Shown here in pieces: positions 2 to 16,707 of a DNA stretch of 64,000 nucleotides. A model generated the notes under the pieces. It did no database searches. It saw only the letters and a list, made by a program, of their open reading frames with translations, and was not told where the DNA came from. Made by a program: the position numbers and the translations under genes. The first letter of the stretch is position 1; the number at the start of each line of letters is the position of its first letter. Source of the stretch: Methylobacter sp. (GTDB lineage: Bacteria; Pseudomonadota; Gammaproteobacteria; Methylococcales; Methylomonadaceae); NCBI RefSeq assembly GCF_030680395.1, contig NZ_JAUXVR010000026.1, positions 1 through 64,000 of the forward strand, given 5' to 3'.

Positions 2-2095
2 GTATGGAGCAGCGTTTACCCGGCAAGCCGGGACGACCTGGACAGGCCGCTATCGATAGGTCGGCCGATCAGCAACGTCCGGCTTTACATCCTGGATCGC
101 AGCGGCAACCCGGCGCCTGTCGGCGTGCAGGGCGAACTCCATATCGGCGGCGCAGGCGTGGCGCGCGGCTATTGGCAGCGCCCCGAACTGACCGCGGACA
201 GGTTCATCCCCGATCCGTTTAAGCAAAACGGCGGCAGACTGTATAAAACCGGCGATCTGGCGCAATACCGCCCGGACGGCAACATCGAGTTTTTAGGCCG
301 CATCGACCATCAGGTGAAAATTCGCGGCTTCAGGATTGAGCTGGAGGAAATCGAAGCGCGGCTGATGGCGTACCCGGGTGTGGATGAGGCAGTCGTTTTG
401 GCGCGGGAAGATCAGCCTGGAAGCAAGCGTCTGGTTGCCTATATCGTCGGTCCCGGTGACGCGTTTTTAGAGGAAACGTTACGCGAAAATCTTAAAACCC
501 TATTGCCGGACATCATGTTGCCAAGCGCGTATGTTTTACTCAGTCAAATGCCGTTGACGGCAAACGGTAAAATAGACCGCAAGGCATTGCCCGAACCGGA
601 TATGACTGAAACTGCAAAAAACCGCTACGTGGCGCCTTCAACGGATACGGAAATGGCGTTGGCGGCTATTTGGAGCGAGATACTCGGCATTGAGCGTGTC
701 GGTAGGCATGACGATTTTTTCGAATTAGGCGGGCATTCATTGTTGGCGACTCAGTTGCCGTTTGCCGTGCAAAAAAGATTCGGCATCCATTTGCCGCTGA
801 AGAATTTTTTCGAGATGCCGACCATTGTCGGGCAAGCGCGGTTAATCGATAGCGGCGAAAGCAGTGAGACATGGGTTGATCTTGAAGCCGAAGCCGCACT
901 CGATCCTGCAATTATTCCCTTACCGTCTGCATCTATAAACGTAAACGTAGCCGCACGGAGTGTGTTTTTGACCGGTGCAACCGGTTTTCTGGGCGCGTTT
1001 TTACTGGCCGAATTGCTGGAGCAAACTCAGGCCGAGATATATTGTTTGATCAGGGCTGCCGATGAGCAAGCAGCGCTGACCCGGCTGCAACGTCAAGTCG
1101 GCTGTTATGAGCTGCAGGACGGTATTGACTGGAGCCGGGTTATTGCAGTCTGCGGCGATTTGTCTGAACCCCGGCTTGGGCTTTCTTCATTGCGTTACGA
1201 TGAAATTGCGGGGCAGGTTGAAGTCATTTATCACAACGGGGCGCTGGTCAATTTTGTCCAGCCTTACAAGGCGTTAAAAGCCGCCAATGTCTTGGGAACC
1301 GAAGAAGTGTTGCGTCTTGCCTGCTTAGGCAAAGCTAAAGCCATTCATTATGTGTCAACCTTGTCGGTATTTAGCGAAGCGTCTGCCATCAATCTGCAGG
1401 GTTATAAGGAAAATGACGAGCCGAACCCCAGCGTAAATTTGGCCAATGGTTATGCGCAGAGCAAATGGGTGGCTGAAAAACTGGTTACTTTGGCCAGGGA
1501 TAGAGGCTTGCAGGCGACTATTTATCGGCCGGCTACCGTTGCCGGCGATAGCCGTAGCGGGATATGGAATACCGAAGACTTCCTGTGCAGATTGATCAAA
1601 AGTTGTATACAGATGGGCTATGCGCCTGCTGAACGCATCCCTATGGATATGGCATCCGTCGATTACATGAGCCGTGCCATTGTTTCGCTATCGTTGCAGC
1701 CGGATTCTATCGGCGCTTGTTTTCATTTAAATCATCCCACCCCGGCTTATTCCGATGAATTGATCGATTGGTTTAGCCGCTCAGGTTATCGCCTGCATCG
1801 TATTCCTTATCGAGACTGGGTGGAAAAGGTAGTGGAGATCGGTCAGAGAAACCACAAAGACTTTGCCTTGTTGCCTTTACTGCCGATGTTTTCGGATCAA
1901 AGCCGGGATGATGCGTCGGAATTGTTGGAAGAAGACTCTATTCGCTACGATTGCAGCGAAACGCAAGGCGTCTTATCGAAGTTAGGCATTGAGTGCGCTT
2001 TGCTGGACGGTGAGTTATTGACGCGCTATCAGGCCTATTTTAGGCGGAGCGGTTTTGTCCGCGAGCCGGCGTATTACCAAGAAAAATTATTTTAA
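2..2095 (+). CDS. Non-ribosomal peptide synthetase, C-terminal part: adenylation (partial) - carrier - thioester reductase
   Basis: The frame is open from the window edge, so the 5' part is missing. It begins inside an adenylation domain: the A7 motif YKTGDL, the A8 stretch from GRIDHQVKIRG to ELEEIE, and the A10 motif LTANGKIDRKAL are all visible. A peptidyl-carrier domain follows (DDFFELGGHSLL; phosphopantetheine serine codon at 737-739). The rest is an NAD(P)H-dependent thioester reductase domain with the Rossmann motif TGATGFLG at about 970 and an active-site Y-x-x-x-K (YAQSK) at about 1450. In this family the terminal reductase releases the peptide as an aldehyde or alcohol instead of hydrolysing it. 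The specificity-determining A-domain pocket is outside the window, so the last amino acid cannot be predicted. The neighbouring receptor, exporter, MbtH and PPTase genes point to a metal-chelating product; that is inference. Confidence 0.95.
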   Translation, partial: VWSSVYPASRDDLDRPLSIGRPISNVRLYILDRSGNPAPVGVQGELHIGGAGVARGYWQRPELTADRFIPDPFKQNGGRLYKTGDLAQYRPDGNIEFLGRIDHQVKIRGFRIELEEIEARLMAYPGVDEAVVLAREDQPGSKRLVAYIVGPGDAFLEETLRENLKTLLPDIMLPSAYVLLSQMPLTANGKIDRKALPEPDMTETAKNRYVAPSTDTEMALAAIWSEILGIERVGRHDDFFELGGHSLLATQLPFAVQKRFGIHLPLKNFFEMPTIVGQARLIDSGESSETWVDLEAEAALDPAIIPLPSASINVNVAARSVFLTGATGFLGAFLLAELLEQTQAEIYCLIRAADEQAALTRLQRQVGCYELQDGIDWSRVIAVCGDLSEPRLGLSSLRYDEIAGQVEVIYHNGALVNFVQPYKALKAANVLGTEEVLRLACLGKAKAIHYVSTLSVFSEASAINLQGYKENDEPNPSVNLANGYAQSKWVAEKLVTLARDRGLQATIYRPATVAGDSRSGIWNTEDFLCRLIKSCIQMGYAPAERIPMDMASVDYMSRAIVSLSLQPDSIGACFHLNHPTPAYSDELIDWFSRSGYRLHRIPYRDWVEKVVEIGQRNHKDFALLPLLPMFSDQSRDDASELLEEDSIRYDCSETQGVLSKLGIECALLDGELLTRYQAYFRRSGFVREPAYYQEKLF

Positions 2096-2242
2096 ACAAA
2101 ATGATTTTTCAGGTGGGGTGGATTTTAAGTTTGCTCGTCTACTTGTTGTAAACATTGATGTACTGACAGCAAATTCTGCTCGTGTTGGGTCCGGTTTTTA
2201 AGCGCTTACCGCGAGTACGAAACTACTAAGGAAAACTCCAAA

Positions 2243-4771
2243 ATGGTTAATAATAAAAAGAAGAACTTTTATCCAGACGAAATTGACAAGAATTCAGGAA
2301 AAAAGCTCAGGGCATGTTTGATAAAAGGGGTCTTTGTTTTAACGTTTTGCCATGCAGTACCGGCGTTATCGGTTACCGATAACGCCCAAAAAATTCAATT
2401 CGACATGCCTTCCAGTGATTTGGCATCCGCATTGAATAACTTCGCAGAAAAAACGGGTATGGAATTAAGTTATCCGGCCTCTATGGTAGCGGGTGCAAAA
2501 TCAAAGCCGCTTAAAGGTAGTTATGGGGTTCAACAAGGCCTGAATGAGTTGTTGCGAGGCACCGGGCTGGCTTATCGCTTGACCGGGGACAATAGCGTAA
2601 CGTTGGAGAAGATGGCTGTTGCGGAGCCGCAATCGGATACGATCACGTTGAAAGCGATGACGGTGACCGAAAAAACCGAATACGATGCTGACAAACTTTA
2701 TGCGTCGCCCAATTCCAGTTCCGCCACCAAAACCGACACCCCGATTATGGAGACGCCGATGTCCATTCAGGTGGTGCCCAGGGCGGTGATGCAGGATCAA
2801 CAAACTACGCGGGTAAAAGACGCGGTTGAGAATGTCAGCGGCGTGCGCTCCAATACCACGTTGGGTTATGGGACGGGCTTTATTATTCGGGGCTTTCGGA
2901 ATAGCAGGGTTTTTCGAAACGGTCTTGTTGCCAACGGTATTTCTACGGGAACAGCGACTGAACTCGACACCGCCAACCTGCAAAGCGTCGAAGTGCTTAA
3001 GGGGCCTGCGGCCATGCTATTCGGCCGGATAGAACCCGGCGGCCTTATCAATGTGAATACCAAACGGGCTGAAAGGTCACCGCGTTACGCAGTGGAACAA
3101 CGTTTCGGTTCCTATGACTTTTACCGCACCGAATGGGATGCAACCGGCTCGCTTACAGACGATCAGTCGCTAAGTTATCGTTTTTCAGGTAGCTATCAAA
3201 ACAATAATTCGTTCAGGGATTTCAATTTTAATGATCGAGTCTCCGCTTACTCGTCCCTGACCTGGAACCCCAGCGATGCAACCGAAATGTCTTTGGATGT
3301 CGAAGGCTTGGATCAGGATTTTCAAGTTGATCGGGGCTTGTTTGCAATAGGCGATCGACCCGCCGCCGTTCCTGTCGAGCGTTCATATATTGACCCCAAC
3401 GACCCGGTGGACACATTATCGAATGTAAATTTGGGGTTCAATTTAACGCATGCCTTTAACAAGGATTGGACGTTACACAATCGTTTTTTAACGACCCATA
3501 ACGATAGCTCTGATATTTCCGTCAAACCGGCAAATGCTTTTACCGTGCAGCAATTCCTGGATCCAAGTCGAGGTAACCGTACTTATCTGCGTAATATATT
3601 TGCCCAAACAGTGAAAGCACAAACGTACACTACTAATGTGGATTTGACTGGAAATACCAATTTCCTGGGTACCCAGCATAAAACCTTAGTCGGCTTCGAT
3701 TATTTAAGATCGACCGGGACTTACCTGACTCGAGGCAATTTCGTGAATCCGGTCAATGGCTTGGGCATTGATATTTACGAGCCGGTATATGGTATTAATT
3801 CTTCGTTTTATGACACCGCTTTAGCAACGCCATATCCTGCCGGGCGTAATCATTCGTATATGAGGGATGAATGGTATGGCGTGTACTTTCAGGATGATAT
3901 AACACTTTGGGATTCTGTTCATTTGGTCGGAGGCGGTCGCTATGATTGGGCTAAAACCGGCCGCGGGGTGGGCGATTCGTATAGTGCGGCCGAAGCTGTG
4001 CTGCCTTCGCGAAATGACGAAGGATTCAGCCCAAGGGTCGGAGTCTTATATCAACCTGTATCATGGATGAGCGTTTATGGTAACTGGACTACGTCTTTTG
4101 GGGCAAATAACGGGGTTACGGCTTCCGGGGCGACAATCGATCCTGAGATTGGGGAACAGTTCGAAGCCGGGTTTAAATCTGAATTATTTGAGCAGCGTTT
4201 GACGACTACGCTGGCTTACTATCATTTAGCCAAAGAAAATATAATGACTCGCGACCTGAATAGTCCGGATCCTTCTGCCCGAACGGCAATCGGCGAAGCG
4301 CGTAGCCAAGGCATCGAATTGGATATGATAGGTCAAATGACTGATGGTTTCAGCTTGATCGGAAACTATGCGTATACCGATGCGCGTATTACAAAAGACA
4401 ACTCCGGGCTTCAGGATCATAAAATGAATAACGTGCCCGAGCATTCAGGCAGTCTGTGGTTAAAGTACGAGATTCAAAATTATGAACCGTTAAAAGGTTG
4501 GAGCGCCGGACTCGGGATGTTTGCCTCCGGACAAAGACAGGGCGACGACGCCAATACCTTTGCTTTACCCGGTTACGCCCGATTAGATGCGTTTGCCGCG
4601 TATCGTTACGATTTCAAGGGTACGCGTCTTACAACGCAATTTAATATCCGCAACCTGTTGGACAAAACCTATTACGAGTCGACCGATCCTTTTCAAAATG
4701 CACCGCCACGCGTCGGAATTTATCCGGGGGCGCCTTTGACTGCTATGGGTTCAATACGGCTGGAGTTTTAG
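2243..4771 (+). CDS. TonB-dependent siderophore receptor with N-terminal signalling (STN) domain, FecA type
   Basis: An 842-residue outer-membrane receptor. A basic N-terminus and hydrophobic stretch (about residues 24-45) look like a signal peptide. An STN domain follows (about 50-125, from IQFDMPSSDLASAL), then a linker, the plug domain (about 165-275) and a 22-strand-type barrel ending in the terminal aromatic residue typical of outer-membrane proteins (IRLEF). AAGGA lies about 10 bases before the ATG. STN domains belong to transducing receptors that signal through an inner-membrane FecR anti-sigma factor to a FecI-type sigma factor; both partners are found in this window at 9.7 and 15.7 kb. 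It probably imports the ferric form of the compound made by the adjacent NRPS. No Fur box was seen in the 147 bases upstream. Confidence 0.93.
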   Translation: MVNNKKKNFYPDEIDKNSGKKLRACLIKGVFVLTFCHAVPALSVTDNAQKIQFDMPSSDLASALNNFAEKTGMELSYPASMVAGAKSKPLKGSYGVQQGLNELLRGTGLAYRLTGDNSVTLEKMAVAEPQSDTITLKAMTVTEKTEYDADKLYASPNSSSATKTDTPIMETPMSIQVVPRAVMQDQQTTRVKDAVENVSGVRSNTTLGYGTGFIIRGFRNSRVFRNGLVANGISTGTATELDTANLQSVEVLKGPAAMLFGRIEPGGLINVNTKRAERSPRYAVEQRFGSYDFYRTEWDATGSLTDDQSLSYRFSGSYQNNNSFRDFNFNDRVSAYSSLTWNPSDATEMSLDVEGLDQDFQVDRGLFAIGDRPAAVPVERSYIDPNDPVDTLSNVNLGFNLTHAFNKDWTLHNRFLTTHNDSSDISVKPANAFTVQQFLDPSRGNRTYLRNIFAQTVKAQTYTTNVDLTGNTNFLGTQHKTLVGFDYLRSTGTYLTRGNFVNPVNGLGIDIYEPVYGINSSFYDTALATPYPAGRNHSYMRDEWYGVYFQDDITLWDSVHLVGGGRYDWAKTGRGVGDSYSAAEAVLPSRNDEGFSPRVGVLYQPVSWMSVYGNWTTSFGANNGVTASGATIDPEIGEQFEAGFKSELFEQRLTTTLAYYHLAKENIMTRDLNSPDPSARTAIGEARSQGIELDMIGQMTDGFSLIGNYAYTDARITKDNSGLQDHKMNNVPEHSGSLWLKYEIQNYEPLKGWSAGLGMFASGQRQGDDANTFALPGYARLDAFAAYRYDFKGTRLTTQFNIRNLLDKTYYESTDPFQNAPPRVGIYPGAPLTAMGSIRLEF

Positions 4772-4909: not shown

Positions 4910-4932
4910 CTACATTTTGATTGAAATTTCGT

Positions 4933-6141
4933 ATGATCAAAGAACCCGATTTAAACAATTATAAGTATTTATTTTCCCGAAAAAACCTCCGCAAGTTCTG
5001 GCTAAGCCTGCATTTAACCATCGCGCTAACGGTCGGCTTTGAGTTCGTCATTCTGGGGCTGACCGGTTCGTGTATCGTTTTTTATAACGAACTGGAAGAA
5101 TGGGGTTTGCCCGCCGTGCCTGTCACAAGCCAATCCAGGATGCGCAGTCTGGACGACATTCTTCATACCGTTAAAGCCGCGCATCCGCAAAGAACCGGCG
5201 GCTGGAATATGATTTTGCCGGGTTACCAGAGCGATTATGTCTGGGTGAGCTATCCAAAACCTGAAGAAACCAAAGACGAGTTGTTTGCTCCGCTGCAAAT
5301 ACTGATTGATCCTTATAGTGGGGAGATCGTTTCAGAAAACTTCTGGGGGCGGACATTGATTAGCTTGATTTACGAAGTGCATGCCGCTTTTGTGACCGGA
5401 AAAATAAGTGCGGAGATGGGTAAAACAGGTTTTAAGGTGGTGTGTTTTTTCGGGATTTTCCTGTTTTTCTCCAGCCTGTCCGGGCTTTATCTGTGGTGGC
5501 CGCGCGGCGGAAAGTTCAAACAGGCCTTAACGATCAAACCCCATTCGAGTCCGCAACGGTTTTATTTTGACCTGCACAAAACCATCGGCTTTTATAGTTC
5601 GGCGTTATTGCTGGTCATTGCTTTTACCGGCTTTGCCTTTGGCTATAAGGACACTATCACTCCGTTGGTAAGCTATTTTTCTGCTGTCAAAGCGGATCAT
5701 TTAAAAGCGCCGATGCTTAAATCGAGCGTCCTGGATTTAAGCCCGCCTATTTCCATCGCACAAGCGGCCGTTATCGCCGATCAGGTTTTCCCCGGCGCGG
5801 AACTGCGCGGAATAGATACGCCGAATGGCAAAGAGGGTGTTTACATGGTTGCCAAACGACAAGCGGGTGAAGCCAATCGCCAGCGTCCGCGCAGTAAAGT
5901 CTGGATAGATCAATACAGCGGCAAGGTGCTGGCTGTTCAGGATCCGGGCAAGTTTACCGCAGGCGAGACATTTTTAAACCTGCTTTGGTGCTTGCACGAC
6001 GGCGAATTTCTAGGCCTTCCTAGTCGTATCCTGTGGTGCGTCACCGGTTTTGCACCGCTGGCTTTATACATCACCGGCATTTTGCGCTGGCTGCAAAAAC
6101 GTGACGCCAGAAACAGGCGCTTGGTTTGTGCAAATCAATAA
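4933..6141 (+). CDS. PepSY-associated transmembrane protein (siderophore-linked membrane protein, possible ferric reductase)
   Basis: About 402 residues. Hydrophobic segments lie near residues 28-52, 170-192, 220-240 and 370-392, separated by two periplasmic PepSY-like regions. This is the layout of the PepSY_TM family (PiuB and relatives). These proteins commonly sit beside TonB siderophore receptors; some have been linked to reduction of ferric siderophores in the periplasm, but the biochemical role of this one is inferred. An upstream in-frame TTG at 4921 is an alternative start; ATG 4933 was preferred because neither has a strong ribosome-binding site. It follows the receptor on the same strand after a 160-base gap with an inverted repeat. 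Confidence 0.85.
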   Translation: MIKEPDLNNYKYLFSRKNLRKFWLSLHLTIALTVGFEFVILGLTGSCIVFYNELEEWGLPAVPVTSQSRMRSLDDILHTVKAAHPQRTGGWNMILPGYQSDYVWVSYPKPEETKDELFAPLQILIDPYSGEIVSENFWGRTLISLIYEVHAAFVTGKISAEMGKTGFKVVCFFGIFLFFSSLSGLYLWWPRGGKFKQALTIKPHSSPQRFYFDLHKTIGFYSSALLLVIAFTGFAFGYKDTITPLVSYFSAVKADHLKAPMLKSSVLDLSPPISIAQAAVIADQVFPGAELRGIDTPNGKEGVYMVAKRQAGEANRQRPRSKVWIDQYSGKVLAVQDPGKFTAGETFLNLLWCLHDGEFLGLPSRILWCVTGFAPLALYITGILRWLQKRDARNRRLVCANQ

Positions 6142-6286
6142 TGTTCTCCATGCACAAAGTCAGTTGAGAGCAGGGCTTTAAATAGACGTCACTAATTGAG
6201 CTAAAAACATTAGTCATTTTTCGTTAAATCAAATTCAAAATGGGTAAAGCTATTGTGAATTCAAGTTGTACAAAAGGACATTAATC

Positions 6287-7525
6287 ATGGAAAACATCAA
6301 CAATTCTCATCAGGAACCGGTTGAACAACCGATTTTTATCTTATCTTGTGTCCGTTCGGGTTCGACAATGCTGCGGTGCATTGTCGATACACATCCTAAT
6401 CTATGCAGTCCGGGGCATTTGAACTTGGGGCCGTTATGCGCCAATTTATATGCGACGACTTATTATTCGTTGGGAAAATTGCCGGGTATGGAAACGGAGG
6501 AACAAAGGGAGCAATTGGCCATTAAAGAAACCCGGCGTGTAGTAACGGATATATTGGGCCGCTATACACAAGGGAAAGGCAAAAAAAAATGGTGCGAAAA
6601 ATCGACCGTCAATATCGATTATTTGGAGATATTGGCAAAAATTTTTCCGCAGGCCAAATATATCTGTTTATATCGCAATTGCCTGGATGTTGCGTATTCG
6701 TGCATTAAATTTAATCCATTGGGGTATATGCATGAATTGTCCGCTTATGTACAGAAGTGTCCGACTAATTTTGTTGCCGCGATGATTGCTAACTGGCAGG
6801 AAAAGACCGGTAAGCTGATAGCATTCGAACAGGCTCATGCCAACCAGTGCATCAGGATTAACTATGAGTCTTTGGTTTTACAGCCGGAGCATGTCTTGGC
6901 AAAATTGTTTGATTTTCTCGATGAGCCTTGGGATGCGCGTTTGATTGATTCGATATTTCAAGTGCCTCACGATCAGGGCGAGGGCGATCTGAAAGTCTGG
7001 TTTTCCGGCAAAATCAGCAAGGATTCTATAGGCAACGGGACAGCGATTCCGTTAACGGCAATTTCTGATGAGCTGATGGCCGAGGTTGACACGCTTCACC
7101 AGCAGTTAGGGTATCCGACGATAGACGCTTTATATGCCGAACAACGAGGTAATGACGAACCGGCGCTTTACGATCTGGACGTGAATGATTTTTTTCAAAA
7201 TCGTTTTTTGCAAAATACTGCTGCACAAATGGACAAATTCAGCCAATTACGCGGTGTTTGTAAATTCGTGGTAACCGGGTTGAAAGGAGGCGTGTGGACA
7301 ATTGAGAGTAATGGTGACGGCTTAACTTTAAAAGACAATGGCGGCTCCTGCGATTGTACAATCGCTACAACCTACAGCGTTTTTTGCGAGCTGATCGAAG
7401 GCAGGAAAACGGCAGGCGATGCTTATGAACAGGGCGAAATAACGGGCGACGGCAATATATTTATGGCATTGGAGTTCGGCGGGTTGCTGTTTGGCAACGC
7501 AACCCGGTCACTGCCATTAAGTTAA
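6287..7525 (+). CDS. Sulfotransferase family protein fused to a C-terminal SCP2-like domain
   Basis: 412 residues. AAAAGGA at 6272-6278 places the start at ATG 6287 rather than the upstream TTG. The N-terminal half has the PAPS-binding 5'-phosphosulfate loop (LSCVRSGSTML, about residues 19-29) and a downstream RNCLDVAYS segment matching the 3'-phosphate-binding region of Sulfotransfer_3-type enzymes. From about residue 310 the sequence changes character: KFVVTGLKGGVW, then a Gly/Asp-rich strand region, then GNIFMALEFGGLLFG. This resembles the SCP2/sterol-carrier fold that binds lipids or other hydrophobic ligands. Sulfation of the NRPS product or of a lipid intermediate is a reasonable guess from context; the SCP2-like domain could present an acylated substrate. 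Neither is shown by sequence alone. Confidence 0.8.
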   Translation: MENINNSHQEPVEQPIFILSCVRSGSTMLRCIVDTHPNLCSPGHLNLGPLCANLYATTYYSLGKLPGMETEEQREQLAIKETRRVVTDILGRYTQGKGKKKWCEKSTVNIDYLEILAKIFPQAKYICLYRNCLDVAYSCIKFNPLGYMHELSAYVQKCPTNFVAAMIANWQEKTGKLIAFEQAHANQCIRINYESLVLQPEHVLAKLFDFLDEPWDARLIDSIFQVPHDQGEGDLKVWFSGKISKDSIGNGTAIPLTAISDELMAEVDTLHQQLGYPTIDALYAEQRGNDEPALYDLDVNDFFQNRFLQNTAAQMDKFSQLRGVCKFVVTGLKGGVWTIESNGDGLTLKDNGGSCDCTIATTYSVFCELIEGRKTAGDAYEQGEITGDGNIFMALEFGGLLFGNATRSLPLS

Positions 7526-7670: not shown

Positions 7671-8504
7671 ATGAATTCGAATGAAAAATTGCCATTGCAA
7701 GTGGATAGGTTGCATGCGCCATCGGTTGAAGAATTTAATAAGTTATATGCGGAACCCGGTAAGCCGGTATTGATAACCGGGGTTGTTTCCGAGTGGAATG
7801 CCTGCTCGCTTTGGAATACGCAATATTTCAATGCGCTTGCCGGTGAGCGCTCAGTTCCTGTCAAACGTATGCGTAACGGCGCCTATCTCGGAGCGAGCAC
7901 CGAATCGATGAAGTTGGCGGATTATTTGGCTGTCGTCAACAAGGAGCCGGTTGGCAGTGAGCGGGTTTATTTAAGCGAGCGGTCTGTTAAGGACATTTTG
8001 CCGGAAATCGCCGGCGACTATACGGTTCCGGCTTACGTTAATTCAACAAAATTCGCCGCAGTGGGTTACATCGGTAGTCATGTGCATTCGCAAATTCACT
8101 TCCACCCTTTCGGAAAGGCGTTGCTGTGTCAAGTTACGGGACGCAAGCGGGTAAAGCTTTTCGCCCCCGATCAAACCCCGTATCTTTACCAGAAGCTGCA
8201 TTTTAGCAAGATTGAAGGCGAGCCCGTTGATTTAGAGGAATATCCTTTGTATGGGAAGGCTCAGTATTACGAGTGCGAAGTTAACGCTGGGGAAATGCTG
8301 TTTTTTCCAATTTACTGGTGGCATGGCGTTGAGACAGAAGAGTTCAGTTCTGCGGTCGTTTTTTTCTGGGATGATTCTCGTAAGTTGAGATGGTTACCGC
8401 CGGAAGGAGTTCCCTGGCGCTATGTGCCGTTGTTTGAAATCATGTCATGGTTATTTAAGGGAAAACGTATGTTGAATCGGGTTTTGAAGTCGGTTCGCGG
8501 ATAG
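7671..8504 (+). CDS. Cupin-like / JmjC-domain protein (Cupin_8 family) with altered metal triad
   Basis: 277 residues, with GGGAGA upstream of ATG 7671. The fold is recognisable from the strand pattern around LLCQVTGRKRVKLFAP and the distal FFPIYWWHGVET motif, as in FIH-like JmjC hydroxylases. The usual Fe(II) motif is H-x-D ... H. Here the aligned residues read H143-F-H145 with H218 as the distal ligand, so the aspartate is replaced by histidine. Family members are 2-oxoglutarate/Fe(II) hydroxylases that often tailor amino-acid residues in peptide products, for example beta-hydroxy-aspartate or -histidine in siderophores. The changed triad makes either unusual chemistry or loss of activity possible. 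The gene lies between the sulfotransferase and PPTase genes on the same strand. Confidence 0.8.
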   Translation: MNSNEKLPLQVDRLHAPSVEEFNKLYAEPGKPVLITGVVSEWNACSLWNTQYFNALAGERSVPVKRMRNGAYLGASTESMKLADYLAVVNKEPVGSERVYLSERSVKDILPEIAGDYTVPAYVNSTKFAAVGYIGSHVHSQIHFHPFGKALLCQVTGRKRVKLFAPDQTPYLYQKLHFSKIEGEPVDLEEYPLYGKAQYYECEVNAGEMLFFPIYWWHGVETEEFSSAVVFFWDDSRKLRWLPPEGVPWRYVPLFEIMSWLFKGKRMLNRVLKSVRG

Positions 8505-8668: not shown

Positions 8669-9361
8669 ATGACTATCGATGTATGGCTTGAACAATTAGC
8701 CGTTACAGACGAAGAGCATCGATATTATTGGTCGTTGCTGGACAAGAACGAGCAAGACAAGGCCTCGCGTTTCGTGCAAGCAATGCACGGCAGGCGTTAT
8801 GTGGTAAGTCACGGCAAGCTCAGGCTGATCCTGTCCGGGTATCTGGGCATGCCTCCTGAAAAGATCGGTTATGCGGAGCAGGCGTTTGGCAAGCCGGTTA
8901 TTGTTATCAATGGCCTGGAGCATCAGGTTAAATTCAATTTGGCGCATTCCGTCGATAAAATGCTGGTGGCAGTGGGGGCGAATGAGCAGATAGGTGTCGA
9001 TATTGAAGTTTGGAACAGTAAAATTGACTGTGCTGCAATCGCCAATCTCTGTTTTGCCGAAGTCGAACGCCGTTTTTGGAACGGATTGCCAAAAAACAGC
9101 AAAGACGAGTTTTTCTATCGGCTCTGGACAAGGAAGGAAAGCTTTGTAAAAGCCGTCGGTGTAGGTCTTGGACTAGATGTTTCCAAGGTTGTTTCTTCGG
9201 CGGTTGGTGCGACGAGGTTTTTGTCTGTGCCGGAGGGGTATGGTTCGGCTGGAGATTGGGTGCTGGTCGATTTGGATTTTGACCGTGGCATCAGCGCTGC
9301 GCTGACGGTTCCTGCGAAATGTTATAACAGAATCGAGCTTAGACGGCTCGAACCAAGGTAA
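8669..9361 (+). CDS. 4'-phosphopantetheinyl transferase, Sfp type
   Basis: 230 residues, the usual size for Sfp/Gsp-type enzymes. It activates carrier domains by moving the phosphopantetheine arm of coenzyme A onto the conserved serine. The Mg2+-binding signature G-V-D-I-E (about residues 110-114) and the later W-T-R-K-E-S-F-V-K-A motif (about 152-161) are intact. Its natural substrate here is the NRPS carrier domain encoded at the left edge of the window. A perfect 9-bp hairpin lies just after the stop. Confidence 0.92.
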   Translation: MTIDVWLEQLAVTDEEHRYYWSLLDKNEQDKASRFVQAMHGRRYVVSHGKLRLILSGYLGMPPEKIGYAEQAFGKPVIVINGLEHQVKFNLAHSVDKMLVAVGANEQIGVDIEVWNSKIDCAAIANLCFAEVERRFWNGLPKNSKDEFFYRLWTRKESFVKAVGVGLGLDVSKVVSSAVGATRFLSVPEGYGSAGDWVLVDLDFDRGISAALTVPAKCYNRIELRRLEPR

Positions 9362-9404: not shown

Positions 9405-9626
9405 CTATTGTGACGCCGTTTGTTGCATGTGTATCTGCAGGCTTAACGGACGCATATCCGTCCAGACTTTTTTGATGTAATCCAGGCACGCCTGCTTGTT
9501 GCCGATTTTATCGACCGTCCGCCAGCCGCCTGGTATTTCTTTGTATTCAGGCCAAATTGAGTATTGTTCTTCGTGATTGACCACAACCCGATAAAGGGTG
9601 GTGTCTTCTTCGTCGTTCCAAGCCAT
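9405..9626 (-). CDS. MbtH family NRPS chaperone
   Basis: 73 residues. The family hallmarks are present: an N-terminal acidic stretch, E-x-Q-Y-S-I-W-P, P-G-G-W-R-T-V, and the C-terminal W-T-D-M-R-P-L-S-L. MbtH proteins bind adenylation domains of NRPSs and are often required for their solubility or activity. A CGGAGC ribosome-binding site precedes the ATG. The gene is on the opposite strand to the NRPS-side genes and 108 bases downstream of the FecI-type sigma gene, so the two may be co-transcribed. The tail after PLSL is longer and Gln/Thr-rich but otherwise unremarkable. Confidence 0.95.
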
Positions 9627-9734
9627 TATTATGCTCCGTTAATGTAATTGCTTTAAACGCACCCCGCGATTTGTTGGGATGGGCCGGTTACTTTGATGTT
9701 TACGTGTAGTAGACGATAGAAGCGTTAAAACACC

Positions 9735-10253
9735 TCAGCTGTCATGCTGATCCAGTAACTGGGTTTTGAATTGGATGCGGCAGTGCAGCAGGGCTTTGGC
9801 CATGTGTTTTTCAACGGCGCTATCGGATATGCCGAGTTCCATGGCTGTTTCGGTATAGGTCATGCCGTAAACTCTATTCAGGATAAATATCTCCTGAGTG
9901 CGCAAAGGCAATTCATCTAATATCCGCTTGATGGCGGTCAACCTTTCGTCAATGGATACGAGTTTTTCGGCAGAGGGGAATTCGCTTGGCGGGAGTAGGG
10001 ACTGGTCTTTCGTCTGTTGGTAGTTTTCCGTTACTTTTCGATGCTTGATGTGATCGTACGCAAGGTTTTTGGCGACTCTGAACAGAAAACCGCGCGGATG
10101 ATCGATCGTTTGTTTTTGTGCTTCTCGGAAAAAAATAATGAAGCTTTCTTGTGCAATGTCGGCGGCTATATCCGGGCAGTTGACAATCCGGGTCAAATGA
10201 AACTGCAATTCGGACTGGTGATTTAAGTAAATGGCTTCTATGTTCAAGTTCAA
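9735..10253 (-). CDS. RNA polymerase ECF sigma factor, FecI type
   Basis: 172 residues with region 2 (about 10-75, including D-I-A-Q-E-S-F and the P-R-G-F-L-F-R-V-A-K-N segment typical of FecI-like iron-starvation factors) and region 4 (about 110-165, helix-turn-helix around M-T-Y-T-E-T-A-M-E-L-G-I-S). Such factors redirect RNA polymerase to siderophore receptor and biosynthesis promoters when released or activated by FecR. The FecR partner is probably the gene at 15733-16707 rather than an immediate neighbour. No Fur box is obvious upstream. Confidence 0.93.
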   Translation of the reverse strand: MNLNIEAIYLNHQSELQFHLTRIVNCPDIAADIAQESFIIFFREAQKQTIDHPRGFLFRVAKNLAYDHIKHRKVTENYQQTKDQSLLPPSEFPSAEKLVSIDERLTAIKRILDELPLRTQEIFILNRVYGMTYTETAMELGISDSAVEKHMAKALLHCRIQFKTQLLDQHDS

Positions 10254-11057
10254 ATCCCTCTTCGTTGTTGTTAAGACTGTTTACCTTGTTGTTACGCTTT
10301 CGGCATCGGAATAAGGTGGGCGGGTCTAACAGCGTTAGAGACTTGCGTTGGCAAACAGCTAAAGCGCCATATATTGGGTTGCATAAGCATAGGTGATTCC
10401 ATGGTCTCTGCTTTGTTAGTTAGCGGTTATCGGTACACAGGTAAGTAGCTGGTATCAAACCGGGTAAGTCGGTGAATATTGCCGTCAAGGCATGTTTTTT
10501 GTTTGTTGGCATGCCTGCGCGCGATGCTCTCAAAGTCAGCCTGTTGTCCTGAATGCATTGCGCCGGCTATAGTGAACAAAGCAATGAATGTGCCATTTTT
10601 ATGTCTGACTAATTTCAATGGGTTAGAAGTTTATTTGAGGACGGGCTTTAAAAAGCGAGGCAGATGATGCAGTGATAATGCGGCATATAACATAGTTTAA
10701 TTAAAGGCGACGCCGGCGTTGAATGGCATGGGGCGCTTTACTGCGTTCAGCACATCCTGCGCAGTTGCACGGGTGGTTCATGAGTATTTTTTAGCGAAAG
10801 GATGAGGTTAAACAAGGCTTAAGGCGTCCTATTACCAGTACTCGGTCAGTCTTGTTATGTCGCGTAAAAATTGTTTAGCTCAGCGTAAACCTGCTCATCT
10901 TATTCGACAAGCTCATGACGAACGGATTTACTTTGTCCGGTCAAAATAGAATTGACTGAATACTAAACCTGTTGTGGCTTTGATGCCGGATATGCGGCAT
11001 AGAATTTGTTCTAACGCATTGAGTTATGTGTACGCAAGCTTAAAGGAAAAATAGTTT
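10254..11057. other. Long intergenic region between sigma-factor gene and ABC exporter
   Basis: About 800 bases between divergent genes. Apart from one copy of a palindromic repeat (10835-10966) and a small hairpin at 10325-10339, nothing coding is supported. Short open frames on both strands at 10427-10667 have no ribosome-binding site or recognisable protein. It should contain the promoters of both flanking genes; no Fur consensus was found by eye. Confidence 0.5.
10835..10966. repeat. MITE-like palindromic repeat, copy 1
   Basis: Starts with CCAGTACTCGGTCAGT and ends with its approximate reverse complement (ATTGACTGAATACT). The body, including TTGTTATGTCGYGTAAAAATTG, TTAGCTCAGCGTAAA, TTCGACAAGCTCATGA, GAACGGATTTACTT and GTCAAAATAGA, is shared nearly word for word with the copy at 27497-27649. 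It has no coding capacity. Confidence 0.7.
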
Positions 11058-12686
11058 ATGTTAGTTTTTTTATGCCGCTCTTCCCGGCTAACGGTTGTTG
11101 GCGTAATGCTTGCCGGTATTATCAGCGGTTTAAGCAGTGCAGCCTTGGTGGCGCTGATTAATTCGACGTTGTCGAATGCTTTGGATGCCAGGCTTTTGCC
11201 ATGGCTGTTTGGCGGATTGTCTATTGCGGTATTGACCAGCGGTTTTCTATCCCATTATCTGCTCAAACGGCTCAGCGCTAAAATTATTTGCGATCTTCGT
11301 ATCCACATCAGCCGCTTGATTCTAGCCGCGCCTTATCCTTATCTGCAAAAGCTCGGCAAGTCGGCGTTATTGGCTAATTTGACTGAGGACATCGCGGCGA
11401 TTGCCAATGCCAGTCAATTATTGCCGGTAGTCTGCATTAATTTTGTGGTTGTGGCGGGCAGTATGGCCTATCTGAGCTGGCTGTCCTGGCAGTTGGCGCT
11501 GGTTTTGGGTGGAGTGATTGCATTCGGCGTATTGAGTTCCAGTCTGTTCAGAGAATGGCCGAAAGAAGCCGTGTTCAAGGCGCGGGAGGAATACGATGTA
11601 CTCAGCAGCGATTTTCGGGCTTTGACGGAAGGTATTCGCGAGCTGAAATTGCACCGGCAGCGTAGCGACGCATTTATGGCGCAGTCGTTGGCGGTCAGCG
11701 CCGAGACCTATAGCCGTTACTCTTTTCGGGGCGCAGTGGCTTATTTATGGGTTAATCAGTGGGCGCAGCTATTGTATTATTTAGCTATTGGCGTGATCCT
11801 CTATGTTTTTCCGGCTTGGCAAGCGATCGACCGGGAAGTGATCGGCGGCTATGCGCTGGTGTTTTTGTTTATGATGACCCCGTTGACCCTACTCACCACC
11901 AGTTTGCCGATTTTCAGCGGTGCCAAGGTGTCGCTGCAAAAAGTCGGACAGCTCGGCGACCAGCTCAAAAGACAAACGGTACCGGTCGATGTGCCTGATA
12001 AAAAAACCGAGGTTTGCGCAATGTTTTCAGGACTGTCGCTACAAGGTGTGACGCACAGTTTTCACCGGGAAAAGGAAAATCGCAATTTTATCTTGGGGCC
12101 TGTCGACCTGGACTTTAAGCCAGGGGAACTGGTATTTTTAATTGGCGGTAATGGTAGCGGCAAGACCACGCTGGCAATGCTGCTGATCGGGCTTTACATG
12201 CCGGAGCAAGGGCTAATTCGCTGGAACGGCAAGGTCGTTGATGACTGTAACCGGGATGATTACCTGCAAAACTTCTCGGTGATTTTTTCGGATTTTTATT
12301 TGTTTGACGAGCTGTATGGGGTCGATAACCAGAACGCACTCGTCGACGATTATTTGCAGCGCCTGCACTTACACCATAAAGTGCGGGTTGAGAACGGCCG
12401 GTTTTCTTCGGTGAACTTGTCTCAAGGCCAGCGCAAACGTTTGGCGCTATTGGTCGCTTATCTTGAAGATCGGCCTTTTTATGTTTTCGACGAGTGGGCT
12501 GCAGACCAGGACCCCGAGTTCAAGCATTTATTCTATACGGAATTACTGCCGGCCTTGAAAGCCCGAGGCAAAACAGTTTTGATTATCAGCCATGACGATC
12601 GCTATTTCTATTTGGCGGATCGCTGTATCAAGCTGGAAGAAGGTCGGATTATAGCCACGGAAAAGCCCGTAGCAGTCAGCAACTAG
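11058..12686 (+). CDS. Cyclic-peptide/siderophore exporter, ABC transporter with fused membrane and ATPase domains (PvdE/SyrD type)
   Basis: 542 residues. The N-terminal 300 residues contain about six membrane segments. The ATPase domain has Walker A (GGNGSGKTT, about 363-371), the signature LSQGQRKRL and Walker B ending in F-D-E-W-A-A-D-Q-D-P, the variant seen in the cyclic peptide exporter family (SyrD, PvdE). AAAGGA precedes the ATG. In pyoverdine producers PvdE moves the acylated precursor into the periplasm, where PvdQ removes the acyl chain. The next gene here is a PvdQ-like acylase, so the same export-then-trim order is inferred for this locus. Confidence 0.92.
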   Translation: MLVFLCRSSRLTVVGVMLAGIISGLSSAALVALINSTLSNALDARLLPWLFGGLSIAVLTSGFLSHYLLKRLSAKIICDLRIHISRLILAAPYPYLQKLGKSALLANLTEDIAAIANASQLLPVVCINFVVVAGSMAYLSWLSWQLALVLGGVIAFGVLSSSLFREWPKEAVFKAREEYDVLSSDFRALTEGIRELKLHRQRSDAFMAQSLAVSAETYSRYSFRGAVAYLWVNQWAQLLYYLAIGVILYVFPAWQAIDREVIGGYALVFLFMMTPLTLLTTSLPIFSGAKVSLQKVGQLGDQLKRQTVPVDVPDKKTEVCAMFSGLSLQGVTHSFHREKENRNFILGPVDLDFKPGELVFLIGGNGSGKTTLAMLLIGLYMPEQGLIRWNGKVVDDCNRDDYLQNFSVIFSDFYLFDELYGVDNQNALVDDYLQRLHLHHKVRVENGRFSSVNLSQGQRKRLALLVAYLEDRPFYVFDEWAADQDPEFKHLFYTELLPALKARGKTVLIISHDDRYFYLADRCIKLEEGRIIATEKPVAVSN

Positions 12687-12751: not shown

Positions 12752-12759
12752 GCATGGCT

Positions 12760-12856: not shown

Positions 12857-12922
12857 GCTCAGTAGCATAACCACGAACGACTTGTATGGATGTAAGAGGT
12901 AGAGCAACGTATGGAGCAGTTG

Positions 12923-12994
12923 CCAAGACACGAAGGGCACGAAGTTTTACTTTGTTTTTCTTCGTGTCCTTCGTGTCCTTCGTGTCTTCGTGGT
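12923..12994. repeat. CACGAAG-type inverted repeat, copy B
   Basis: Left arm CCAAGACACGAAGGGCACGA and right arm with three tandem CTTCGTGT-like units ending in CTTCGTGGTGAT. The right arm has one more unit than copies A and C, as expected from slippage. Confidence 0.7.
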
Positions 12995-13035
12995 GATAAT
13001 CTTTTAAGTTTTTTAATCGCATTTCATAGTATTGG

Positions 13036-15435
13036 ATGGCAATGGCGAATATTCGAAAATCTGTTTTGTATACCTGTCTGGGGCTGGCAAGTCTGGCGGC
13101 GATCGCTGTCGGCGGCGGTTTCTGGGTTTTGCATAAGTCCCTGCCGCAACTTGACGGCACGGTGAAGCTGGAACGGCTTACCGCGGAGGTTCGCGTACAT
13201 ACCGATGCGCACGGCATTCCGGTCATTGACGCCGCTAACCGTGCCGATGCGGTTCGGGCGCTGGGCTATGTCACCGCCCGAGACCGCCTGTTTCAGATGG
13301 AACTGATGCGGCGCAAAAATGCCGGGCGCTTGGCGGAAATCTTTGGCGACATCGCGCTGGACAGCGACATCAAGGCCCGAACCTACGGTTTTCATCGGGA
13401 GGCAAAAGCGATCCTGGCGAAACTGCCGCAGGATCATCTGCATTATCTGCAAAGCTATGCCGACGGCGTCAACAGCTATATGGCCGAATCCGGCAAACTG
13501 CCTTTCGAGTTTACGCTATTGAGCTATCAGCCGGAGCCTTGGACAGCCGAGGACAGCCTGCTGGTGGTATTAGGCATGTGTGAAACCTTGACTGCCGGTG
13601 AGGAGCGCAGCGAACGCATGCTGAGCGTGATGGAAAAAACCTTGCCGGATGCCGCCGTGCGTTTTCTGACGCCGGATACCGATCCTTACACCGAATCATT
13701 ACTGAAACAGGCTGAATCGTTGCGTCCGGCGCAGGCGATTCCGGTCGAGGCTTTGGCAACCGCATTGGCTCATCAGCCGATGGATAAAACCTTGTTGGCG
13801 CAGACGGTGCAGCAGTCCGATTTCATGGTCGGTTCCAATGCCTGGGCGGTCAGCGGCAAGAAGACCTGGGACGGTCGGGCCATTCTGGCTAACGATATGC
13901 ATTTGGGCCTATCGGTGCCCAATATCTGGTACCGCGTCGAGTTGAACTACGGCGACACGCATGCCGCAGGCGTAATTTTACCGGGCACACCCTTGATAAT
14001 CGTCGGCAGCAATCGGCATATTGCCTGGGGGGCCACCAACCTGACCGGCGATTTCCTGGATCTGGTACAGCTTGAGATTAATCCCGCCAATCCCGATCAA
14101 TACCGGGTAGGCGAACAATGGCAAGGCTTTGACGAATACCCGGAAACCATCCTCGTCAAGGGCGGGGAGGCCAAACAGGTCATGGTCAAGCAGACGCGTT
14201 GGGGGCCGGTTGCCAACCAGCCGTTGCTGGATAAATCGGTGGCAATTCATTGGGCGGCGCTGGATGCCGATGCCATCAACTTGAATATGTTTGACTTGGA
14301 GCAAGGCGAAATCCTGGAGCAAGCGGTAAAAGTCGTCAACAGCAGCGGCGGCCCGCAGTTGAATGTGTTGCTGGCCGACGACAAAGGCCGCATTGCCTGG
14401 ACATTGATGGGCAAAATCCCCAAGCGCTTCGGCAATGACGGTTTGGTCAGTCGCTCATGGGCGGACGGCAATGTGGGCTGGAACGGTTATATCGAACCCG
14501 AACATTTGCCGCGCGTCATCGATCCGCCCGAGGGCATCCTGGTGTCGGCCAACGACCGCCGTCTGGGCAAAAATTACCCGTATGTCATCGGCCACCAGTT
14601 CGGCAACGGCTACCGCGCCTACAGGATTACCCGGCAACTTGCGCAAATGCCCAAGATCGGCGAATGGGCCATGTTCGATTTGCAACTGGATACCGAAAGC
14701 GAGTTTTATGGCTTCTATCAGCAGTTGGCCCTGACCAGTCTGACCGCCGAAGCCATTGCCGGGCAAGCGGATTTGGCCGGGGTACGAGACTATTTGCTGG
14801 CCTGGAACGGGCGGGCTGATGTCGACAGCCTGGGTTTTGCGTTGCTGGTCGAGTTTCGCAAGCAATTGATCGAATCGGTATTTACGCCGTTTTTATCGGC
14901 CAGCCGGCAAGCCGATAAAAACTTCAGTTATGCGTGGACGTATATCGATACGCCGTTGCAAGCCCTGCTGAACGAAAAGCCCTTGCATGCACTGCCCGAT
15001 ACGGCGCATTACCGGAACTGGGACGACTTTATTTTGGGGCAATTGAAACACAGTCTTCAGCGAGTGCAAGCCCGGCAGCCGGAGGTGGCGCTAATGGCGT
15101 TGAACTGGGGCAGGCTGAACAAGGTCAAGCAAACGCATCCGTTTTCAAAGGCGATGCCGATACTGAGCGCTTTGCTGGATATGCCGGAGGAGGCATTGCC
15201 GGGTTGTGCTTTTTGCGTTCGCGCGGCGGGGCCGGGTTTTGGAGCCAGCCAGCGGCTGGTGGTTGCGCCGGGCCATTTTGAAGACGCCATTCTGCATATG
15301 CCCGGCGGCCAATCAGGTCAGCCCTTGTCGCCTTATTACCGGGACCAGCAGGACTATTGGCTCAAAGGCTTGGCGATGGCATTGACAGCAGGAAAGTCCG
15401 AACACATGCTGTTGTTACAACCGCATGACGATTAA
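13036..15435 (+). CDS. Penicillin-amidase family (Ntn-hydrolase) acylase, PvdQ/acyl-homoserine-lactone acylase-like
   Basis: 799 residues. A hydrophobic N-terminus (about 8-30) is a signal peptide or anchor, so the enzyme acts in the periplasm. The precursor layout is alpha chain, spacer and beta chain; the beta chain should start at Ser267 in the motif M-V-G-S-N-A-W, where the new N-terminal serine is the nucleophile. Further conserved motifs: ANDMHLGLSVPNIWY, and a later ANDRRLG region with an asparagine at the expected catalytic position. Members cleave amides, including the fatty-acyl group of pyoverdine precursor (PvdQ) and acyl-homoserine lactones. The adjacent PvdE-like exporter favours siderophore maturation. 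Both ATG 13036 and ATG 13042 are possible starts. Confidence 0.9.
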   Translation: MAMANIRKSVLYTCLGLASLAAIAVGGGFWVLHKSLPQLDGTVKLERLTAEVRVHTDAHGIPVIDAANRADAVRALGYVTARDRLFQMELMRRKNAGRLAEIFGDIALDSDIKARTYGFHREAKAILAKLPQDHLHYLQSYADGVNSYMAESGKLPFEFTLLSYQPEPWTAEDSLLVVLGMCETLTAGEERSERMLSVMEKTLPDAAVRFLTPDTDPYTESLLKQAESLRPAQAIPVEALATALAHQPMDKTLLAQTVQQSDFMVGSNAWAVSGKKTWDGRAILANDMHLGLSVPNIWYRVELNYGDTHAAGVILPGTPLIIVGSNRHIAWGATNLTGDFLDLVQLEINPANPDQYRVGEQWQGFDEYPETILVKGGEAKQVMVKQTRWGPVANQPLLDKSVAIHWAALDADAINLNMFDLEQGEILEQAVKVVNSSGGPQLNVLLADDKGRIAWTLMGKIPKRFGNDGLVSRSWADGNVGWNGYIEPEHLPRVIDPPEGILVSANDRRLGKNYPYVIGHQFGNGYRAYRITRQLAQMPKIGEWAMFDLQLDTESEFYGFYQQLALTSLTAEAIAGQADLAGVRDYLLAWNGRADVDSLGFALLVEFRKQLIESVFTPFLSASRQADKNFSYAWTYIDTPLQALLNEKPLHALPDTAHYRNWDDFILGQLKHSLQRVQARQPEVALMALNWGRLNKVKQTHPFSKAMPILSALLDMPEEALPGCAFCVRAAGPGFGASQRLVVAPGHFEDAILHMPGGQSGQPLSPYYRDQQDYWLKGLAMALTAGKSEHMLLLQPHDD

Positions 15436-15564
15436 AAACATCATAAGCAATAGGTTTAGGTCGTTTCAATCCGCATCTGAGGGGTAAAATACCACCCGCA
15501 GACAAGCGGTCGGTGGAGCCAAGGAGGGTTGTATTGCCTACACAGCGCTGTCAAGTTTTACTAA

Positions 15565-15586
15565 TCTCCCTAACGGAGAGGTTTTT
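15565..15586 (+). terminator. Possible terminator after acylase gene
   Basis: TCTCC (15565-15569) and GGAGA (15575-15579) form a short stem followed by GGTTTTT. The stem is only five pairs, so support is weak. Confidence 0.35.
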
Positions 15587-15604
15587 GGCCACAAGGGAAT
15601 ATTG

Positions 15605-15736
15605 ATGAATACTATGCAACGCAACTCTTTAGCGCTTTCATCTGAGGGCTATGGGTGCAATTGTGTCGCCGGTTGGGTGGCTGGTTTATCCGGCTGCGGA
15701 GAGCTTTCTATGCATAAACCGAGTAGTTATCTATGA
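15605..15736 (+). CDS. Small 43-residue ORF translationally coupled to fecR
   Basis: Too short for routine gene callers. AAGGGA at about 15593-15598 lies seven bases before the ATG at 15605. The frame encodes 43 residues and stops at 15734-15736, so its TGA overlaps the FecR start ATG (ATGA junction). The protein has a Cys/Gly-rich middle, S-E-G-Y-G-C-N-C-V-A-G-W-V-A-G-L-S-G-C-G, with no transmembrane segment or known motif. It may be a leader peptide that tunes FecR translation, or a small peptide in its own right. There is no similarity evidence, so it remains a candidate. Confidence 0.4.
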   Translation: MNTMQRNSLALSSEGYGCNCVAGWVAGLSGCGELSMHKPSSYL

Positions 15737-16707
15737 AACAGGAAAACGAAAACAACAGTTTGGAATCCGGGCTTGATAACGACCTTGACGAGCAAGCAGT
15801 GACCTGGTTTATACGGTTGCGGGCCGATAATGTTTCCAGCGAGGAAAAAACGTCATTTCTCCGATGGCTGAATCAGGACGATACGCATCGCGACGCCTTT
15901 AATGAAGTCAGCAAGCTATGGGGCGATGCCGATCTGTTGCAAGCGCTTGGCGAAACCGCCCGGAAACGTCGCATAACACCGCATAAAAAAACCACAGCCA
16001 GTTTCAAATTGCCGCTGGCGATGGCCGCCTGTCTGGCTTTGGGCTTGCTGTTTAACAACGAGCTGTGGATCTTGCTGCAAGGCGATTATTCGACCCAGGT
16101 GGGCGAACGTAAAACCGTCTATTTCGATGACGGTTCTACCGCGATGCTCAATACCGACACCGCTATCGCGGTCAGTATGGATGGCCCGCAACGCAGGATC
16201 GAACTATTGAAAGGCGAGGTTTACTTTGAGGTCAAACCCGACCCCAATCGGCCGTTCATTGTTCAGGCCGATCATTCGACGACTCGTGTGCTGGGAACCC
16301 GGTTTTTCGTGCATGAAAGGAGCCATAGCGACGAAGTCAAAGTCGTGTCCGGCCGGGTGGAAGTAACCGATCGGCGCACCTTGAAGCAGCCGTTGATTCT
16401 GCATGATCGCGAGGCTGTATCGGTCGATGCCGCAGGACTGGGTGAGACCCTGCTGCTGGATTCGGCGCTGGCAACCTCCTGGGTGAACGGTTTTCTGGCG
16501 TTTGAGAATGCCCCCCTGGAAAGCGTCATCAACCAGATTCTTCGCTACAGAGCCGGTTTGGTGGTTTACAGGGACAATAATTTGCGTGAACTCAAAATCA
16601 ATGGACGCATCAATTTGCGTGAGTCGGACGACATGCTGAAAGTTTTGGAAAAAAACCTGTCGGTAAAGATGACTTATCTGACCGACTGGCTGGTGATTGT
16701 CGGCTAA
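15733..16707 (+). CDS. FecR-type anti-sigma factor / transmembrane signal sensor
   Basis: 324 residues. An N-terminal cytoplasmic domain of the DUF4880 type (about 20-70, with W-F-I-R-L-R-A and F-L-R-W-L-N) binds the sigma factor. One membrane segment lies at about 95-115. The periplasmic FecR domain (about 118-215) has V-G-E-R-K-T-V, L-L-K-G-E-V-Y-F-E-V and V-L-G-T-R-F. A C-terminal STN-like region (about 245-320) contacts the receptor's signalling domain in known systems. The likely partners are the FecI-type sigma factor at 9735-10253 and the STN receptor at 2243-4771. The start overlaps the stop of a small upstream frame. Confidence 0.92.
   Translation: MKQENENNSLESGLDNDLDEQAVTWFIRLRADNVSSEEKTSFLRWLNQDDTHRDAFNEVSKLWGDADLLQALGETARKRRITPHKKTTASFKLPLAMAACLALGLLFNNELWILLQGDYSTQVGERKTVYFDDGSTAMLNTDTAIAVSMDGPQRRIELLKGEVYFEVKPDPNRPFIVQADHSTTRVLGTRFFVHERSHSDEVKVVSGRVEVTDRRTLKQPLILHDREAVSVDAAGLGETLLLDSALATSWVNGFLAFENAPLESVINQILRYRAGLVVYRDNNLRELKINGRINLRESDDMLKVLEKNLSVKMTYLTDWLVIVG

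Follow-up and report, generated by a model that had tools for sequence, protein, structure and literature searches.

What does the gene cluster at the start of contig NZ_JAUXVR010000026.1 of a Methylobacter sp. genome make, and which metal would its product serve? The window analyzed here is the first 64 kb (64,000 nucleotides) of that contig (C11), in a genome of 4.36 Mb and 49 contigs, and its start is a contig end. Genes were checked by domain searches with Pfam and NCBIfam models, each score being compared with the cutoff of the model. Every gene listed in an earlier sequence-only reading of this DNA was found in this way between positions 2 and 16,707: the terminal reductase of a nonribosomal peptide synthetase (NRPS), a receptor with an STN domain, MbtH, a 4'-phosphopantetheinyl transferase (PPTase), a peptide exporter, an N-terminal nucleophile (Ntn) hydrolase, and FecI/FecR. 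Genes for NRPS, TonB-type uptake, and metal-type regulation, the combination generally sought in metallophore systems, lie together in one locus. The probable answer, in our view, is a nonribosomal metallophore system under FecI/FecR control, in a methanotroph of the Gammaproteobacteria. Its genes, domain order, promoter-like sites, and co-conservation are read directly from the DNA, and the metal-chelating role of its product is predicted from the genes.

In the pathway that we infer, including the order of its steps, the substrate of the acylase, the target of sulfation, and the metal, a fatty-acid-AMP ligase (FAAL) would load a fatty acid onto an acyl carrier protein (ACP), and two NRPS proteins would assemble acyl-(D-)His-Ser-His, which a terminal MxaA-type reductase would free, most likely as an alcohol. 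An adenosine phosphosulfate (APS) kinase and a sulfotransferase would add sulfate, a SyrD/PvdE-type ABC protein would carry the acyl-peptide into the periplasm, and a membrane-anchored Ntn-hydrolase would strip the acyl group there. The mature histidine chelator would exit the cell, bind its metal, and re-enter via the STN-type TonB receptor, the loaded form of which would signal through FecR to FecI, turning on all the units.

The assembly line and its predicted product

The NRPS frame is already open at window base 2, and the sequence-only reading had placed the left part of the cluster outside the window and proposed an acylated product. The missing part was located on contigs C20 and C46 of the same genome, and it includes an acyl-starter module in which FAAL and ACP are followed by a condensation (C) domain. 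The last 141 bases of C20 (8,336 bp) are the first 141 of the window; the same 141 bases also open C20, and exact copies occur in the genome at these three places only, all of them contig ends. C20 encodes the end of an adenylation (A) domain, a peptidyl carrier protein (PCP), an epimerization (E) domain (TIGR01720, 142 bits, cutoff 74), C, an A domain with a Ser code, and PCP, and then a new protein with a docking region (TubC_N, a weak match of 23.6 bits vs. a cutoff of 26), C, and the beginning of an A domain. On C46, read in reverse, FAAL-ACP-C is followed by the N-terminal half of an A domain, which runs into the contig end; among single-domain models, those of fatty-acid-AMP ligases best match the first 615 residues of this protein (504 bits, below the cutoff of 775).

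C46 and C20 share 129 exact bases, and the frame gap of ~204 bp (68 codons) between them would correspond to a short repeat contig that dropped out of the assembly. The half-domains match and the frames are consistent across C46, C20, and the window, and the gene order predicted for C46–C20, namely cysC (APS kinase), FAAL, His module, E, and Ser module, is unbroken in two other genomes (G041 and G063); in G063, an ankyrin gene is inserted after the APS kinase. The complete line reads FAAL-ACP-C-A(His, partial code)-PCP-E-C-A(Ser)-PCP / C-A(His)-PCP-reductase.

Adenylation codes were taken from positions 235–331, the final K being added by convention. The last A domain, joined over the exact C20–window overlap, has the code DSALIAEVW(K), and one report lists DSALIAEVWK as a His code able to accept β-OH-His (PMC12283262). 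Resemblance to the His-activating A domains of corrugatin-type siderophores lies in this code only. The middle A domain has DVWHISLVD(K), which we take to be a Ser code, and in the first one five code positions, read by eye (DSA on C46, VW on C20), are compatible with His. The codes His (partial)-Ser-His, together with the E domain, point to a line the product of which would be acyl-(D)His-Ser-His.

For comparison, clusters were read in 12 of the 41 other genomes with a reductase match, mostly the best matches; these clusters were chosen for the reductase, so that its presence there is by selection. The genome entries G031 and G001 (metagenome-assembled genome [MAG] DP16D_bin.19) were assumed to be identical, as were G106 and G002 (M. 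fluvii), and each was counted once. A FAAL at least 60% identical to that of C46 occurs in 9 of the 12, and in the remaining three the stretch examined starts, or may start, inside the NRPS. Counting the Methylobacter cluster itself, 13 clusters show His-type codes in 11 cases, Ser codes in 12, and a FAAL in 10, and the predicted peptides vary (His-Ser-His, His-Ser-His-Ser, His-His-Asp-Ser-His, and His-His-Thr-Ser-His). One A domain in the otherwise His-type line of G226 (L112) has the code DMENVGAVNK, presumably close to a hydroxyornithine-type code. At the G160 locus, the NRPS looks interrupted, as a DDE transposase open reading frame (ORF; L108:8167–9513) separates the FAAL from the first A domain that was found. 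The window genome also has a second NRPS locus (L010, L011; C18:196000–235000) with the codes DVQTIGEVKK, DLKNIGISSK, and DAFWLGGTFK.

Release by reduction rather than by a thioesterase, as originally proposed, is supported by the reductase score (TIGR01746, 355 bits, cutoff 213) and by the closest solved relative, the MxaA terminal reductase (4u7w, 314 bits). The latter is a four-electron, alcohol-forming enzyme, and by analogy the peptide is probably freed as an alcohol.

Predicted export, deacylation, and regulation

Acylation, export, and deacylation had been proposed to form one unit, and the neighborhoods of the acylase agree with this. Among 32 acylase loci surveyed with 1.5-kb flanks, exporter and FecR genes both lie ≤1.5 kb from the acylase in 16, and in 12 of the 13 most similar loci. 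The exporter belongs with TIGR01194, a cyclic-peptide export subfamily of which PvdE is presumably a member. The label "PvdQ-like" for the acylase holds for the broad Ntn-hydrolase family and the presumed place of action, but the enzyme is not PvdQ. Ser267 opens the predicted beta chain and His289 is its residue 23, the arrangement of a PvdQ-like Ntn-hydrolase, and Asn506 is also present; the score against the PvdQ model NF051460, however, is 67 bits, where the cutoff is 950. The best solved relative is a D-succinylase (188 bits), while the best PvdQ chain reaches 49 bits. In sequence, D-succinylase and glutaryl acylase are nearer to the acylase than PvdQ is, and the model score and nearest structures rule out orthology to PvdQ. 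The N terminus has a hydrophobic stretch, read by eye; a membrane-anchored periplasmic enzyme is predicted, with the acyl-peptide as its presumed substrate.

The surface-signaling set is complete, with an extracytoplasmic function (ECF) sigma factor, FecR, an STN receptor, and a shared ECF promoter-like site. Against FecI-named models the sigma factor remains below the cutoffs (89 vs. 185 and 82 vs. 260 bits), and the FecR protein likewise matches FecR-named NCBIfam models below cutoff. The promoter pattern, TGRGG-N17-CGTCYWM, was built from sites in several clusters and fixed after several of these had been seen. It has seven exact matches in the genome, three in the window (receptor, mbtH, and exporter), two on C46 (NRPS and APS kinase), and two elsewhere, and the reversed control pattern has five; of the five locus sites, four contributed to the definition of the pattern and the APS-kinase site did not. 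The two matches elsewhere, on C12 and C47, fall within other ORFs or on the strand opposite to them and appear to be chance occurrences. Cluster sequence amounting to 541 kb contains 39 matches vs. none for the reversed pattern, and 37 of the 39 lie ≤700 bp upstream of a cluster gene; as many of these sites were already known when the pattern was settled, the count is no independent test. The shared motif links C46 to the window by evidence other than the overlap of the contigs. With the presumed pairing of sigma factor and motif, the sites suggest that FecI may control every step of the pathway. In G102, the regulon is split between two loci 2.8 Mb apart (L099, L100 and L127), with the motif at both.

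Table 1. Features of the metallophore-type locus within the window
Feature	Position	Strand	Evidence
C-terminal part of second NRPS protein: A (3' part)-PCP-terminal thioester reductase	2..2095	+	NAD_binding_4, E=2.4e-71; TIGR01746, 355 bits (cutoff 213)
ECF (FecI-type) promoter-like site upstream of receptor gene	2114..2142	+	TGRGG-N17-CGTC
TonB-dependent siderophore-type receptor, N-terminal STN signaling domain	2243..4771	+	TIGR01783, 317 bits (cutoff 223.5); STN, 38 bits (cutoff 28)
PepSY_TM inner-membrane protein	4921..6141	+	Pfam domain match
Sulfotransferase (PF13469) with C-terminal SCP2 domain	6266..7525	+	Pfam match
Cupin_8/JmjC-type protein, nearest JMJD5, metal motif HxH...H not HxD...H	7671..8504	+	Pfam and structure relatives
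PPTase	8669..9361	+	Domain match
MbtH-like protein	9405..9626	-	PF03621, E=1.5e-22
ECF promoter-like site upstream of mbtH	9709..9737	-	Pattern match
FecI-type ECF sigma factor	9735..10253	-	ECF superfamily model, 61 bits (cutoff 43)
fecI–exporter spacer, up to promoter-like site	10254..10802	.	No Fur-like site at ≥12/19 bases
ECF promoter-like site upstream of exporter-acylase-fecR	10803..10831	+	Pattern match
SyrD/PvdE-type ABC peptide exporter	11058..12686	+	TIGR01194, 454 bits (cutoff 286)
Penicillin-amidase-family Ntn-hydrolase acylase	13036..15435	+	PF01804, 554 bits
FecR-type anti-sigma regulator	15733..16707	+	PF04773, 83.5 bits (cutoff 24)

Tailoring genes and distribution in the family

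Sulfation, raised as a possibility in the sequence-only reading, gains support because the window sulfotransferase is accompanied by an APS kinase (P0018, C46:4739–5374; TIGR00455, 270 bits, cutoff 139) behind the shared promoter motif, and thus in the same regulon. A sulfotransferase similar to that of the window occurs in 8 of the 13 clusters (7 of the 12 others), other sulfotransferases in the G120 and G160 clusters, and an APS kinase in 5 of the 13. Hydroxylation, also suggested, would depend on a JMJD5-like protein in which His takes the place of the acidic metal ligand. Instead of the HxD/E...H triad of the JMJD5 type, all four homologs compared have HxH in place of HxD, so that hydroxylase activity is uncertain. 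Cupin_8 proteins and CmlA hydroxylases occur in 4 of the 13 clusters each; the CmlA type is absent from the window genome and from MAG DP16D_bin.19 and present in M. fluvii. No TauD protein was found in the window genome, and hence no TauD-fold His hydroxylase of the IBH_His kind, defined as a siderophore His hydroxylase (PMC12971057). TauD matches do exist in G102, G109, and G120, at sites remote from the respective clusters. In the M. fluvii locus (L031–L033), the receptor, UDPGT, and carbamoyltransferase genes are split over several ORFs relative to the MAG, through decay or sequencing errors.

The reductase (E ≤ 1e-60) was found in 42 of the 237 genomes of the family Methylomonadaceae, and the acylase (E ≤ 1e-150) in 81. 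Thirty-one of the 42 reductase genomes also have the acylase and 11 do not; where both occur, they are ≤25 kb apart in 23 genomes, far apart on one contig in three, and on different contigs in five. Of 369 genomes sampled across the class, only two reach E ≤ 1e-100, and both belong to this family. The locus is real, conserved, coherent, and of metallophore type, and its combination of features was not found in print; the literature search, by titles and abstract starts, returned no description of locus or product among the best-ranked results, most subscription journals being outside its coverage, so that absence is unproven. Taken together, the fatty-acyl start, the reductive release of a His/Ser peptide, sulfation, removal of the acyl group, and a single FecI-type promoter serving all units amount to a testable structural proposal for a chelator family spread over several genera of one methanotroph family. 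Nor do the matches listed for the locus proteins scanned include the chelator marker genes on which one current metallophore detection method relies (PMC12971057).

The metal, the alternatives, and known systems

Iron is the likely metal and is ranked ahead of copper. The solved chains nearest to the receptor are named FoxA (ferrioxamine) and CntO (metal-pseudopaline), followed by FhuA and FpvA, and the receptor adjoins a PepSY protein, a neighbor typical of iron uptake, which is here a possible metal-chelate reductase. Iron is unproven, however: the predicted metal-binding residues are histidines, the locus proteins scanned include no known chelator gene, and there is no Fur box at fecI in the window. 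The Fur scan used a 19-bp consensus, matches being counted of 19 bases, and it works in this genome, since it found a strong site (16/19) at 21198–21222, upstream of a piuABC-like operon. Weaker matches mean little, because the window has 30 at ≥13/19 vs. a mean of 13.2 in mono-shuffled copies. Fur control of fecI is not supported by the scan of the window spacer. The piuABC-like operon itself (window 16883–20626, minus strand) comprises a PepSY protein, a PKHD-type Fe dioxygenase, and a TonB receptor with a below-cutoff Fiu match, and forms a separate uptake unit, probably under iron control. Between fecI and the exporter (window 10254–11057), a palindrome-like block, AATGCGTTAwATAACATAG, is conserved in the seven closest clusters; it was matched to no nameable operator.

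Several results weigh against the system as drawn above. The code of the first A domain is only partly read, with the ~204 bp between C46 and C20 missing. Among the listed Pfam/NCBIfam matches of the window, C20, and C46 proteins, the part of the genome scanned for catechol and hydroxamate genes, there is no known chelator gene (catechol, hydroxamate, or IBH/TBH). No Fur-like site reaches 12/19 in the window spacer, and none of seven aligned clusters reaches 13/19 at fecI. An exporter match is absent from the 1.5-kb flanks of 13 of the 32 acylase loci, four of which have FecI and FecR, and a 14th locus (L079) has only a 28% partial match; in G025, the order is FecI-acylase-FecR, again with no exporter match. 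In the G038 and G111 stretches the acylase is the only cluster gene matched, save for an OEP-type match at G038. Because of these loci with no exporter match and of G038 and G111, the acylase may serve other pathways and need not serve this one only.

The alternative that survives best, though we regard it as unlikely, is a copper chelator (chalkophore), in which the deacylated His-Ser-His start would form an amino-terminal copper- and nickel-binding (ATCUN-type) site and serve the copper-dependent methane monooxygenase. A His-rich product, a single particulate methane/ammonia monooxygenase (pMMO/AMO)-type subunit gene in the genome, and the missing Fur box at fecI are all in keeping with it. 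In some methanotrophs, moreover, the methanobactin locus includes a FecIR-like pair or a sulfotransferase next to the TonB receptor (PMC3621798). MbnB exceeds its cutoff in none of the nine genomes searched, all nine having weak matches only (43–59 bits vs. 325). Iron is favored instead by the nearness of the receptor to FoxA and FhuA, even if the top chains are also named CntO, by the adjoining PepSY protein, and by the Fur-like sites of ≥13/19 that precede fecI in 2 of 11 clusters (G120 and M. fluvii). In nine FAAL-to-reductase lines, moreover, His is at position 3 in five and at position 2 in four, a count in which the Methylobacter first code is partial and the script could miss modules. 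A more specific form, a sulfated copper pro-chelator N-acyl-His-Ser-His-ol, whose deacylation outside the cytoplasm would free the amine for the ATCUN-type site and whose copper-loaded form FecI/FecR would sense, is somewhat more doubtful still. If the metal were copper, deacylation would be a pro-chelator switch, and the locus would bear on the copper supply for methane oxidation in methanotrophs without recognizable methanobactin.

It is improbable, in our view, that acylase, exporter, and FecI/FecR are an old core serving several NRPS products, with the reductase NRPS an incidental neighbor. The wider distribution of the acylase than of the reductase (81 vs. 42 genomes) and the G025 arrangement would suit such a core, as would the G049 block, which lies 0.65 Mb from the only reductase match of that genome (39% identical). 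However, G042, which has no reductase match, keeps the MbtH/FecI/exporter/acylase/FecR block beside His and Ser modules that end in a thioesterase (83 bits, cutoff 26), and the distant G102 block, 2.8 Mb away, yet shares the promoter motif with its NRPS. A methyltransferase-like stretch was seen by eye in the last module of G042 (L116, L117).

Short lipopeptides that are initiated by FAAL and released reductively are known as protease inhibitors, surfactants, or signals, and the terminal reductase would suit a secreted aldehyde or alcohol of this sort, to which the receptor and FecIR would be unrelated neighbors. This is very improbable, given that a single promoter motif precedes the genes for the receptor, the exporter, MbtH, and the NRPS, that the STN receptor, FecR, and FecI imply uptake of the substrate, and that acylase and exporter are adjacent in the window as well as in roughly half of the acylase loci surveyed.

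Set beside known systems, the proposed metallophore pathway combines features of several. The UDPGT and carbamoyltransferase genes of the MAG DP16D_bin.19 and M. fluvii loci, which are not in the window locus, are reminiscent of decorated, bleomycin-type β-OH-His peptides. Methanobactin shares the methanotroph host, the TonB receptor, and, in some loci, FecI/FecR-like regulators or a sulfotransferase (PMC3621798), but is a ribosomal peptide, and MbnB was not over cutoff in the nine genomes above. With myxochelin (MxcG/MxaA), the locus has in common the kind of terminal reductase (494 bits against the MxcG model, which has a cutoff of 2300; MxaA as given above), while its starter is a FAAL-loaded fatty acyl group and not a catechol. 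Corrugatin, ornicorrugatin, and histicorrugatin are lipopeptide siderophores. Like them, the product would be an NRPS lipopeptide with a His-type A code, DSALIAEVWK, which can take β-OH-His (PMC12283262); unlike them, IBH_His (TauD fold) is absent from the genome, the acyl chain is predicted to be removed, and reductive release and sulfation are expected. From the pyoverdine system of Pseudomonas (PvdE, PvdQ, and FpvA/FpvR/PvdS-type regulation), the locus differs in that no pyoverdine chromophore genes were seen, and in its D-succinylase-related acylase, reductive release, His/Ser peptide, and sulfation genes, while the two have in common an acylated NRPS precursor (here a predicted one), a TIGR01194 exporter, an Ntn-hydrolase acylase, and an STN receptor with FecR and an ECF sigma factor.

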